Source of the DNA: an uncultured Marinobacter sp.
GTDB taxonomy: Bacteria; Pseudomonadota; Gammaproteobacteria; Pseudomonadales; Oleiphilaceae
Length of the DNA stretch: 64,000 nt
Direction: 5' to 3'
NCBI RefSeq assembly: GCF_947259545.1
Contig: NZ_CAMYMK010000003.1
Coordinates: forward strand, 121,469-185,468
In this document: in pieces, positions 866 to 57,017 of the stretch
Layout: every line of letters starts with the position of its first letter
How positions within the stretch are numbered: position 1 is the first letter of the stretch
Position numbers and translations under genes: made by a program
The notes under the pieces: generated by a model
Told to the model about the DNA's origin: nothing
The model's input: only the letters and a program-made list of their open reading frames with translations
The model's database searches: none

Positions 866-940
866 GGCGGGTGGGGTCACAGAGTCAAAAAGGAGAAACG
901 TGGTTTCTTTGAATTTTTTGACTCTGTGACCCCACCCGCC
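866..940. repeat. long perfect inverted repeat, family A copy 1
   Basis: Two 26-nt arms (866-891 and 915-940) are exact reverse complements. Inside them a second short stem, AGAAAC/GTTTCT (894-899 and 903-908), closes on a GTG loop. The inner core, 884-922, matches the core of the element at 3228-3299 when that one is read on the other strand, whereas the outer arms are unrelated. It lies between the convergent patatin and arsJ genes and could act as a bidirectional terminator or a REP-like mobile palindrome. Confidence 0.85.
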
Positions 941-973
941 CTCATTGGGCCGTGTGCTGAAACGCCTTGGGGG

Positions 974-2176
974 TTATATCTGTCCGGTTTGCTCTGCCCG
1001 CTTTTCAGGTAATCCGGAGGCCAGAGTGGCGGCCATTGCTACCAGGCTGGCGGATATCCAGAGGCAGGCTTCCAGGCCATAGGTCTGGTAAATCCAGCCG
1101 GACAGGATTGTGCCGAGAAGCCGCCCTGCGGCGTTGGACATGTAGTAAAAGCCCACATCCAGTGACACGCCGTCGCCTCTTGCGTAGCTGACGATCAAGT
1201 AGCTGTGGAGGGAGGAGTTGATGGCAAACAGTACGCCGAATAACAGCAAACCTCCGATCACCACCACCTGTGGCGACCAGCCCGCCATCAGGCCTATGGC
1301 GATCGCCGCAGGGATCAATGCCAGGGCGGCTGCCCAGAGCACTGCCGGTTGTTTGCCTTCCATGCTGCCGGTTATGCGTGGCGCGATGGTTTGGATGAAG
1401 CCGTAGCCGATGATCCAGGTGGCCATGAAGCCGCCGACTTTCCAGAAATCCCAGCCGAACACGGTGTGCAGGTAGACTGGCAGGGCCACGACGAACCAGA
1501 CGTCGCGGGCGCCGAACAGGAACAGGCGGGCGGCGGAGAGGACGTTGATGGCGCGGCTCTTAGACAGGATGTCGGTGAACTTGGGTTTGGCTTTGCTCTT
1601 GCCCAGTTCCTGTTTGAGCAGGAACAGGCTGGCCAGCCATACCAGCAGCAGGCCGGCGCCCATGATGATGACCGCACCTTTGAAACCGGCGGCCATCAGC
1701 AGTACCCCGCCCAGGAAGAAGCCGACGCCTTTCAGGGTGTTCTTGGAGCCAGTGAGGATGGCCACCCACTTGTACAGCTTGCCCTGTTGCTCATCGGGAA
1801 CCAGAAGTTTGATACCGCTTTTGGCGGACATCTTGTTCAGGTCTTTGGCGATGCCGGACAGCGCCTGGGCGGCCATGACCCAGGGCACGGTCAGCATGGC
1901 CGCGGGTACCGCGAGCATGCCCAGTGCAAGCACTTGCAGGAACAGCCCCAGGTTCATGGTGCGGTTCAGGCCGATGCGGGCACCGAGGTAGCCGCCCACC
2001 AGGTTGGTCACTACGCCGAAAAACTCGTAGAAAATGAACAGCAGGGCGATTTCCAGCGGTGAGTAGCCCAACTGGTGGAAATGCAGCACCACCAGCATCC
2101 GCAGGGCCCCATCCGTCAGGGTGAAGGCCCAGTAGTTGCCGGTGATCACCAGATACTGTCGGATGGCTGGCGTCAT
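974..2176 (-). CDS. arsJ: organoarsenical efflux MFS transporter ArsJ
   Basis: A 400-residue major facilitator protein with about twelve hydrophobic segments. Its N-terminal region (ITGNYWAFTLTDGALRMLV) and the GIAKDLNKMSAKSGIK segment are typical of ArsJ. ArsJ exports 1-arseno-3-phosphoglycerate, the unstable product that GAPDH makes when arsenate replaces phosphate, so arsenate is effectively extruded. Its start lies one base after the stop of the GAPDH gene (TGA-A-ATG), which implies translational coupling. It is the last gene of the leftward operon arsCR-acr3-gap-arsJ. The assignment rests on sequence character plus the diagnostic gap-arsJ pairing. Confidence 0.93.
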   Translation of the reverse strand: MTPAIRQYLVITGNYWAFTLTDGALRMLVVLHFHQLGYSPLEIALLFIFYEFFGVVTNLVGGYLGARIGLNRTMNLGLFLQVLALGMLAVPAAMLTVPWVMAAQALSGIAKDLNKMSAKSGIKLLVPDEQQGKLYKWVAILTGSKNTLKGVGFFLGGVLLMAAGFKGAVIIMGAGLLLVWLASLFLLKQELGKSKAKPKFTDILSKSRAINVLSAARLFLFGARDVWFVVALPVYLHTVFGWDFWKVGGFMATWIIGYGFIQTIAPRITGSMEGKQPAVLWAAALALIPAAIAIGLMAGWSPQVVVIGGLLLFGVLFAINSSLHSYLIVSYARGDGVSLDVGFYYMSNAAGRLLGTILSGWIYQTYGLEACLWISASLVAMAATLASGLPEKRAEQTGQI

Positions 2177-2177
2177 A

Positions 2178-3182
2178 TCAGGCGGAACCTACCCGGCGTG
2201 CCAGTTCGGCGGTGCGGTTGGCGTAACCCCACTCGTTGTCGTACCAGGCGTAGAGTTTCACCTGGGTGCCGTTAACCACCATGGTGGACAGGGCGTCGAT
2301 AATGGATGAGCGCGGATCGGTCTTGTAGTCGATAGACACCAGCGGGCGTTCCTCGTAACCCAGGATGCCCTTCAGGTCGCCTTCGGCGGCTTCCTTCAGC
2401 AACTGATTTACCGTTTCCCGGTCCGTAGGCTGGTTCACCTCGAACACGCAGTCGGTCAGCGATGCGTTGGTTAGTGGAACCCGCACTGCGTGACCATCCA
2501 GCCGACCCTTCAGTTCCGGGAAGATCTCGATGATGGCGGTAGCTGAACCGGTGGTGGTGGGGATCAGTGAACTGCCGCAGGCCCGGGCACGACGCAGGTC
2601 CTTATGGGGCGCATCGATAATGGTCTGGGTATTGGTCAGGCTGTGAATGGTGGTGATGGAACCATGCTTGATGCCCAGGTTCTCGTGAATCACCTTCACC
2701 ACCGGTGCCAAGCAGTTGGTGGTGCACGAGGCGGCAGTCACGATTCGGTCGTTGGCGGGATCAAAGATATTGTCGTTTACACCGACCACGATGTTTTTGG
2801 CTCCCGCCTCTTTGACCGGTGCGGTCACCACAACGCGTTTCACGCCCTGATCCAGATACTCCTGTAAGGCGCTGACTTTCTTGTTGACGCCACTGGCTTC
2901 AATCACCAGATCACAGCCAGACCAGTCGGTTTCCCCGATAGTCTGGTTATGAGTAACGCGGATTCTTTGATCGCCAATGACAATGTTGGTGCCATCCGTA
3001 GTGGCTTCGTGGTCCCAGCGCCCATGCACACTGTCAAAGTTCAGTAGGTGTGCCAGCGTTCCTGCATCGGCGCCAGGATCGTTGACGGCAATAAACTCCA
3101 GCTCCGGCCACCCCCAGGCAGCCCGAAGTGCCAGCCGGCCGATTCGACCGAAACCGTTGATACCCACTTTGATTCTGTTCAT
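2178..3182 (-). CDS. gap: ArsJ-associated glyceraldehyde-3-phosphate dehydrogenase
   Basis: A 334-residue type I GAPDH. It has the N-terminal NAD-binding motif [10 protein letters not shown], the nucleophile Cys153 in ASCTTNC, the HSLTNTQ segment and the C-terminal [10 protein letters not shown]. The ATG at 3182 is preceded by a good GGAGGG site; the frame stays open further upstream, but that part runs into the hairpin element and is not expected to be translated. Placed between acr3 and arsJ, it is probably the dedicated enzyme that uses arsenate to form 1-arseno-3-phosphoglycerate for ArsJ rather than the housekeeping glycolytic copy. Confidence 0.93.
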
Positions 3183-3227
3183 CACTGTTCCCTCCGGGGC
3201 AATTCGTGACTTAACTCTGGTGTGGCG

Positions 3228-3299
3228 GTTGTGGTGGTAATGGGTCAAAAACGTTCAAGGAAGCCACGGTTCCTGTTTTTGACCCATTACCACCACAAC
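3228..3299. repeat. long perfect inverted repeat, family A copy 2
   Basis: The 25-nt arms at 3228-3252 and 3275-3299 are exact reverse complements, with an inner AGGAA/TTCCT stem. Read on the minus strand, core 3244-3283 aligns with core 884-922 of copy 1 at roughly 33 of 40 positions, but the outer arms differ completely. It sits inside the ars operon, between the acr3 stop and the gap ribosome-binding site, so it could form a strong hairpin in the polycistronic mRNA and modulate gap-arsJ expression or processing. Confidence 0.85.
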
Positions 3300-3327
3300 T
3301 GCCGCGGACTCCGTACTGGCCCGCTTT

Positions 3328-45562: not shown

Positions 45563-45577
45563 CAAGACGCAAGCCAC

Positions 45578-45616
45578 AAAAAAAGCGCCGTGCTCAAAGA
45601 GCAGGGCGCTTTTTTC
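45578..45616. terminator. bidirectional rho-independent terminator
   Basis: AAAAAAGCGCC-GTGCTC-AAA-GAGCA-GGGCGCTTTTTT is a near-perfect hairpin flanked by A and T tracts, between the hydroxylase-like gene and the convergent pckA. It can terminate both transcripts. Confidence 0.9.
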
Positions 45617-45629
45617 GTCAAGGCTGGCC

Positions 45630-56908: not shown

Positions 56909-57017
56909 GAAGCGAGTGGATAGGCTGTTCCAAAACACGCTGTGAATACGTCCTTGTACGCTCCGCTCCGCCATCCATGGCTCCGCAGGGTTTTGGAACA
57001 GCCTATCCACTCGCTTC
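56909..57017. repeat. long perfect inverted repeat, family B
   Basis: Arms of 28 nt (56909-56936 and 56990-57017) are exact reverse complements and flank a 53-nt centre that includes its own palindrome (CCATCCATGG-type, 56971-56980). Located between the rpoH terminator and the next gene's start. It differs in sequence from the family A elements but shares their architecture: a structured core inside long perfect arms. Confidence 0.85.

Follow-up and report, generated by a model that had tools for sequence, protein, structure and literature searches.

Three palindromic elements in a 64,000-nucleotide (nt) stretch of the genome of an uncultured Marinobacter sp. (contig NZ_CAMYMK010000003.1, positions 121,469 to 185,468; the window hereafter) belong to two families that are, with moderate confidence, best explained as RNA hairpins under strand-specific selection whose two arms are changed together by templated copying. 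Elements 1 and 2 carry a small CCACG core and element 3 belongs to a large sister family; both kinds follow one build, in which a small conserved core closes a nearly perfect stem that is about 28 base pairs (bp) long and free in sequence. Under this explanation selection on a functional folded strand, most likely RNA, would keep the stem paired, and a mutation in one arm would be copied into the other, most likely through template switching within one strand during replication (quasipalindrome correction). Both arms would thus drift together, remaining palindromic but losing any recognisable likeness from one site to another and, at many sites, from one species to another, and the cores would be exchanged or homogenised among copies.

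The evidence comes chiefly from the large family, represented in the window by element 3 (56909-57017, downstream of rpoH), which has perfect 28-nt arms around a 53-nt core:

56909 to 56936, no strand assigned: left arm of element 3, 28 nt, 100% complementary to 56990-57017.
56937 to 56989, minus strand: core of element 3, with two CANGGANG-type hairpin loops on the minus strand, repeated in the genome.
56949 to 56956, minus strand: CANGGANG-type motif CAAGGACG of element 3, read from the sequence, copies counted separately.
56972 to 56979, minus strand: CANGGANG-type motif CATGGATG of element 3, read from the sequence, copies counted separately.
56990 to 57017, no strand assigned: right arm of element 3, 28 nt, from the inverted-repeat search.

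This core occurs 29 times in the 4.08-Mb genome when up to 3 mismatches are allowed, and complementary arms that differ by site surround 27 of the 29 matches. A covariance model was built on 27 copies, a decayed copy (L006) and a broken one (L015) being omitted. Collecting the genomic copies and testing their arms for covariation had been proposed in the sequence-only reading that preceded this work; in the 27-copy alignment 99.1% of the cells of the outer helix are paired, both sides have changed at 25 of the 26 pairs, and the structure as a whole scores 0.72 for covariation where shuffles score 0.17. Matches to the model number at least 92 in this genome (150 of 1369 candidates scored) and from 3 to 145 in each of 12 other sampled members of the genus (150 candidates scored in each, the largest numbers being lower bounds). 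Two genomes from other families of the order contain 24 and 25 copies and four contain none. A class-wide scan of one genome per genus, filtered more strictly and limited to scoring 27 candidates in any genome, gave copies in 27 of 143 genomes, this genome included. A hairpin of the large-family type lies downstream of rpoH in 20 of the 30 loci read, which were aligned with MAFFT after orienting.

For a detailed comparison, 243 elements were parsed across three genomes, this one and its two nearest relatives (G027 and G060), using an element finder that needs two GGA motifs and that parses 87 of the at least 92 copies in this genome. The stem ends sharply: the share of Watson-Crick pairs is at least 94% over positions 0-22, has fallen to 76% by position 27 and to 48% by position 28, and is about one quarter beyond. 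Paralogous arms share on average 7.958 of 20 positions, which equals the column-shuffled mean; high identities are slightly over-represented, 13 or more positions agreeing in 82 of 3741 pairs where 59 are expected. The parsed large-family copies, like 7 of the 8 small-family sites of this genome, have site-specific rather than conserved arms.

Orthologous elements allow the changes in the two arms to be counted directly. Requiring both flanks to match within 500 nt per side gave 114 orthologue pairs, each joining an element of this genome to one of a relative, and 76 of the 87 parsed elements have an orthologue in one or both relatives, so most are common by descent among these genomes. The identity of orthologous arms forms a continuum from 20% to 100%, and at the element-bearing loci, whose comparison had also been proposed beforehand, the arms differ between species yet stay paired. 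Our main set comprises 76 orthologue pairs with an arm identity of at least 0.6, giving 1520 outer stem positions (4 low-pairing and 5 shifted-arm pairs were omitted, together with pairs containing N); the adjoining 60 nt have a mean divergence of 18%. Double Watson-Crick changes are found at 178 of the 1520 positions (108 transitions, 70 transversions), together with 7 other double changes and 46 single changes, of which 29 lead to a core-strand G-U, 2 to A-C, 14 to other mismatches and 1 to another state. Without the identity limit, double changes occupy 260 of 1680 positions in 84 pairs (145 transitions, 115 transversions; 8 low-pairing pairs, 21 shifted-arm pairs and pairs with N omitted), and the 48 least diverged pairs contain 36 double and 22 single changes.

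These numbers bear on the possibility of ordinary compensatory evolution, in which second-arm mutations arise independently under selection for an RNA stem and no arm is copied. As the null we used an origin-fixation Markov model in which mutations are independent and selection acts, run with two settings that give mispair frequencies close to those observed. It predicts double Watson-Crick changes at 0.1-1.7% of positions, and the 178 observed are 7 to 25 times commoner than predicted (t = 0.5 to 0.25). Double transversions were predicted at 0.02-0.34% and observed at 4.6%, and double transitions were predicted at 0.1-1.3% and observed at 7.1% (t = 0.12-0.5 in both cases); two looser settings, at which mispairs become too frequent, reach at most 0.8% and 2.4%, respectively. 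Single changes in the model are about 3 to 19 times as frequent as double ones, opposite to the 46 and 178 observed. Stochastic tunnelling, which lies outside an origin-fixation model, was judged by hand reasoning to be small. Compensatory evolution is in keeping with the strand-specific G-U bias described below, which shows selection on the folded strand, and for the rise of G-U toward the outer end of the stem, which resembles relaxed RNA selection; given the excess of double changes, we regard it as an unlikely explanation of the whole. The transition:transversion ratio is 112:75 for paired changes (80 pairs, 26 positions) and 388:321 in the flanks, two fairly similar values, as if one mutation made each paired change. 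The paired changes match what is expected from copying one arm off the other. Coincident changes in both arms beyond the single-mutation expectation are what template switching produces, and template switching is a known arm-copying process (PMC8794818; PMC8604942; PMC7202029).

The mispairs that do occur are asymmetric between the strands. At 20 stem positions in each of the 243 elements there are 4687 Watson-Crick pairs, 108 core-strand G-U pairs, 5 A-C pairs and 60 other mismatches, and from position 31 outward, past the stem, A-C is commoner than G-U. Arm copying alone should not give this asymmetry, and selection therefore probably acts on the folded core strand, most simply as RNA, possibly as single-stranded DNA.

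If the core strand is transcribed, its loops point to a partner. Counted on model matches together with the earlier alignment, since the element finder itself demands two GGA motifs, CANGGANG is present in loop 1 of all 81 large-family copies and in loop 2 of 79 of them. PMC6692469 gives the CsrA/RsmE consensus as (A/U)CANGGANG(U/A) in hairpin loops; the large-family loops carry its CANGGANG core, with the pairing taken from the alignment and the count covering CANGGANG and not the outer A/U. The genome contains one CsrA gene, and the large-family core most probably binds a CsrA/RsmA dimer, as far as its sequence can tell. The consensus is absent from element 1, and element 2 has a single CAAGGAAG; two GGA-type loops are likewise absent, on reading their sequences, from both, whose core is a short CCACG hairpin. 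CsrA binding has also been proposed for the TwoAYGGAY RNA (PMC4333381). Against its Rfam model (RF01731), element 3 scores 33.1 bits, below the gathering score of 43, while L330, one of 8 scanned loci from other genera, reaches 45.2 bits, above it. Elements 1 and 2 gave no TwoAYGGAY match even at lax scores, and Rfam at gathering scores gave nothing across the window. Lax Rfam matches to microRNA precursors and to a Yersinia small RNA (sRNA) were rejected as of the kind that any long hairpin produces. When the loops were checked against AYGGAY itself, 79 of the 81 copies counted had CANGGANG in each loop, but the second position was often not a pyrimidine (AAGGAC in element 3). An unconserved outer stem around both hairpins is found in the large family; elements 1 and 2 share only the stem.

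The sequence-only reading had offered a choice between compensating selection that keeps the hairpin and a mechanism that makes new arms around a mobile core; selection and a process acting on both arms are supported, and the mobile core is not. Such a core (REP/RAYT-like or using another single-strand transposition) would insert and make its arms from the target by fold-back synthesis. In its favor, cores within a subtype can match over 54 nt, and one such core was seen by eye in 5 copies with unrelated arms within one genome; in addition, copy number varies from 3 to 145 between species, orientation relative to genes is mixed, and the flanks hold weak motifs, CAGGCTA on the 3' side among them. 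The RAYT-type transposase that had been suggested was not found: PF01797 (Y1_Tnp) has no match in the genome at E <= 0.001, the control being positive in 5 of 14 genomes. Orthologous elements in relatives for 76 of 87, and arm identities that run from 20% to 100% as drift would give, also speak against insertion. Under identical outer arms (20/20) the core subtype differs between the orthologues own_46 and G060_97, which suggests conversion of the core alone, and since core subtypes vary under constant arms, core exchange could explain alike cores in unlike arms. With no Y1_Tnp gene found, mostly shared positions and differing cores under the same arms, a mobile core is quite unlikely to be chiefly responsible, on a comparison that covered occupied sites. 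Since copy number varies so widely, there must be some route of gain or loss.

Two observations concern the arrangement and surroundings of the elements. Large-family elements less than 800 nt apart at the same locus of this genome are divergent in 13 of 13 cases; twelve of the gaps measure 74-213 nt and the remaining one 627 nt:

L027, L062 and L064-L074, minus then plus strand: loci of the divergent close pairs in this genome.

Of 241 elements in the three genomes, 31 have CAGGCTA within the 70 nt that follow the stem on its 3' side and 1 has it further out, and its reverse complement adjoins, by eye, some small CCACG-family members. No flank position of 242 elements exceeds 0.64 bits, and none on the 5' side exceeds 0.34.

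Elements 1 and 2 show the same build with a shorter core:

865 to 891, no strand assigned: left arm of element 1, 27 nt, 100% complementary to 915-941; a different but paired arm in G027 and G060.
892 to 914, minus strand: core of element 1, ATTCAAAGAAACCACGTTTCTCC when read on the minus strand, a core found at 8 genome sites and reversed relative to element 2.
915 to 941, no strand assigned: right arm of element 1, 27 nt, from the inverted-repeat search.
3224 to 3252, no strand assigned: left arm of element 2, 29 nt with one G.T mismatch (97% complementarity); G027 and G060 carry unrelated arms.
3253 to 3274, plus strand: core of element 2, GTTCAAGGAAGCCACGGTTCCT, kept in three species despite differing arms.
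3275 to 3303, no strand assigned: right arm of element 2, 29 nt, from the inverted-repeat search.

Alignment and the inverted-repeat search confirmed the earlier description of a common core, reversed in one copy, within unrelated and self-complementary outer arms. The pairing of the arms, described as 18 and 16 nt long, also held, while their lengths did not: the stems are 27 and 29 nt, because the GTCAAAAA...TTTTTGAC boundary belongs to the stem. With 22 nt and 23 nt between their arms, elements 2 and 1 stand first and third among the 10 inverted repeats listed for the window, and folded as RNA they have z-scores of -10.0 to -12.4. The pattern GTCAAAAAN{12,36}TTTTTGAC occurs twice in the window (0.00 expected from 100 shuffles), and these are its only two places in the whole genome. 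As a family query the boundary pattern GTCAAAAA was too narrow, retrieving just the two window copies. We also searched with the core GAAMCGTGGYTTCYTTGAA, allowing 1 mismatch. It has 8 sites in this genome, 7 of them with near-perfect, site-specific arms of 21-28 nt, so that the absence of any other copy, which had been named as grounds for giving up the earlier claim, is not what was found. The eighth site (L317, at the start of contig 6) shows a perfect inverted run of 70 nt up to the contig end, which may be a real long palindrome or an assembly artefact and was excluded from the evidence. Any GAAMCGTGGYTTCYTTGAA core is present in 6 of 100 genus members; the match in G100 was set aside as lacking a hairpin.

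The genes around elements 1 and 2, with putative names read from translations, are a patatin-like gene, arsJ, gap, acr3 and an arsR/arsC-type gene, forming an arsenic-gene region at the start of the window. The nearest named relative of its ArsJ is from Marinobacter lipolyticus SM19 (98%). Element 1 (865-941) lies between convergent genes and element 2 (3224-3303) in the interval between acr3 and gap. We compared the 30 best arsJ loci of the 92 genomes with a match and found hairpins at 3 of them, in this genome, G027 and G060; the bracketing of the gap-arsJ pair noted earlier thus extends to the two closest relatives and is absent from the other 27 of these loci. Beyond these 30, the same core flanks gap-arsJ on either side in G074 and precedes gap in G065, judging by coordinates. 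Among the three orthologues of element 2 the core is constant and the near-perfect arms are wholly different. Element 1 is single here and a tandem triplicate with a period of about 73 nt downstream of arsJ in G027 and G060 (L134 and L135); the right arms of the first two tandem copies match poorly, and the third copy has perfect arms with matched changes relative to our arms. Another small-family member, compared in four species, shares the outer arm GTGAGGGT and has about 10 inner bases replaced on both sides.

The location of element 1 between two convergent genes, and of many sister elements near gene ends (from crude open reading frame calls), is what would be expected of ordinary bidirectional transcription terminators with long stems. 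Elements 1 and 2 have no T run past the outer stem on either strand, the T run being inside the stem, 79 of the 81 large-family copies counted retain the two CANGGANG loops, and the wobble pairs are strand-specific; for these reasons we consider terminators very unlikely. A G+C-rich stem followed by a U run, the form of an intrinsic terminator, was looked for in the sequences of elements 1 and 2 and not found. Elsewhere in the window, the inverted repeat at 45576-45618 (20-nt arms that are 90% complementary, contain A and T runs and are separated by 3 nt) looks like an ordinary bidirectional terminator.

Several points weigh against hairpin RNAs with templated copying of the arms. The null model takes in neither recombination nor stochastic tunnelling, in which double mutants arise before the intermediate has become fixed; the orthologue pairs are not mutually independent; and many immediate flanks of diverged arms have also diverged, which makes the divergence time uncertain. 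Just 5 A-C pairs occur beside 60 other mismatches, a lower proportion than simple purging of mispairs gives. Matched length changes in both arms are convincing at just 2 sites by script (4 of 7 matches were boundary mis-assignments and the remaining 3 represent these 2 sites) and at 1 more by eye. Template switching should also invert the core, yet inverted elements were found at just 3 sites in the three genomes, and at each of these the arms had changed. Of 55 orthologue pairs that at first seemed inverted, most were artefacts of adjacent opposed elements, and 4 pairs at the 3 sites survived filtering. One more inverted element is found at the rpoH locus L128. The matched length changes and the few inverted elements may lend weak further support to template switching. 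With respect to the RNA, TwoAYGGAY matches just 6 of the 12 large-family loci of this genome that were scanned, at 27.7-35.4 bits, all below the gathering score. Finally, among co-directional neighbors in the three genomes the core strand is sense in 37 elements and antisense in 44, in a tally that used a crude open reading frame caller and whose 42 cases inside genes are untrusted. With such mixed orientation the elements are unlikely to be just 3' untranslated region structures of host genes, and the core strand would have to be transcribed from a promoter of its own or by antisense read-through.

A stronger form of templated copying is conceivable, in which a dedicated or unusually strong process would rewrite whole stretches of both arms while sparing the core and so maintain about 100 self-renewing, site-specific palindromes per genome. 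The wholly different arms of element 2 in three species and the replaced inner bases of the GTGAGGGT member in four would be examples of such rewriting; we consider this form possible, if rather improbable. Under it the arms might even serve as locus-specific identities.

How perfect pairing is kept up in long RNA stems is an old question, and the evidence for template-switch upkeep of short RNA stems is called circumstantial in PMC8794818. About 100 alignable, nearly perfect 28-bp stems per genome give a direct measure of paired and single changes. If templated copying is true, covariation, the usual proof of RNA structure, can arise partly by mutation, and if the proposed binding is true, a large set of CsrA-type sites is dispersed across gammaproteobacterial genomes. 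Our literature search found no description of high-copy TwoAYGGAY elements or of variable-arm Marinobacter palindromes, which is not proof of absence.

The elements can be compared with several known systems. REP/BIME elements and REPINs with their RAYT are also high-copy intergenic palindromes, some in opposed pairs; here the stem sequence is unconserved, the foot has no invariant tag (no conserved GTAG/CGTC tetranucleotide) and no Y1_Tnp gene was found, and the elements were not assigned to REP. Miniature inverted-repeat transposable elements were ruled out since the inverted repeats differ between sites. The CsrA-sequestering sRNAs of the CsrB/RsmX/Y/Z type (PMC4333381) likewise have GGA-loop hairpins in pairs; our elements differ in being dispersed over about 100 loci with one pair of sites each and a long closing stem. 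TwoAYGGAY (RF01731, clan CL00106) has, according to PMC4333381, paired same-strand GGA-loop hairpins inside a poorly conserved outer stem, as does the large family, which differs in having dozens of copies per genome, a stem nearly fixed at about 28 bp and site-specific arms. Hairpins changed by template switching share with ours coincident arm changes and homogenised inverted-repeat arms, and may share an occasional spacer inversion; the cases in PMC8794818, PMC8604942 and PMC7202029 are ribosomal RNA, microRNA, yeast genes and reporters, unlike the roughly 100 natural loci per bacterial genome described here. The elements are a variant of kinds already known, TwoAYGGAY-like RNA and template-switch hairpins.

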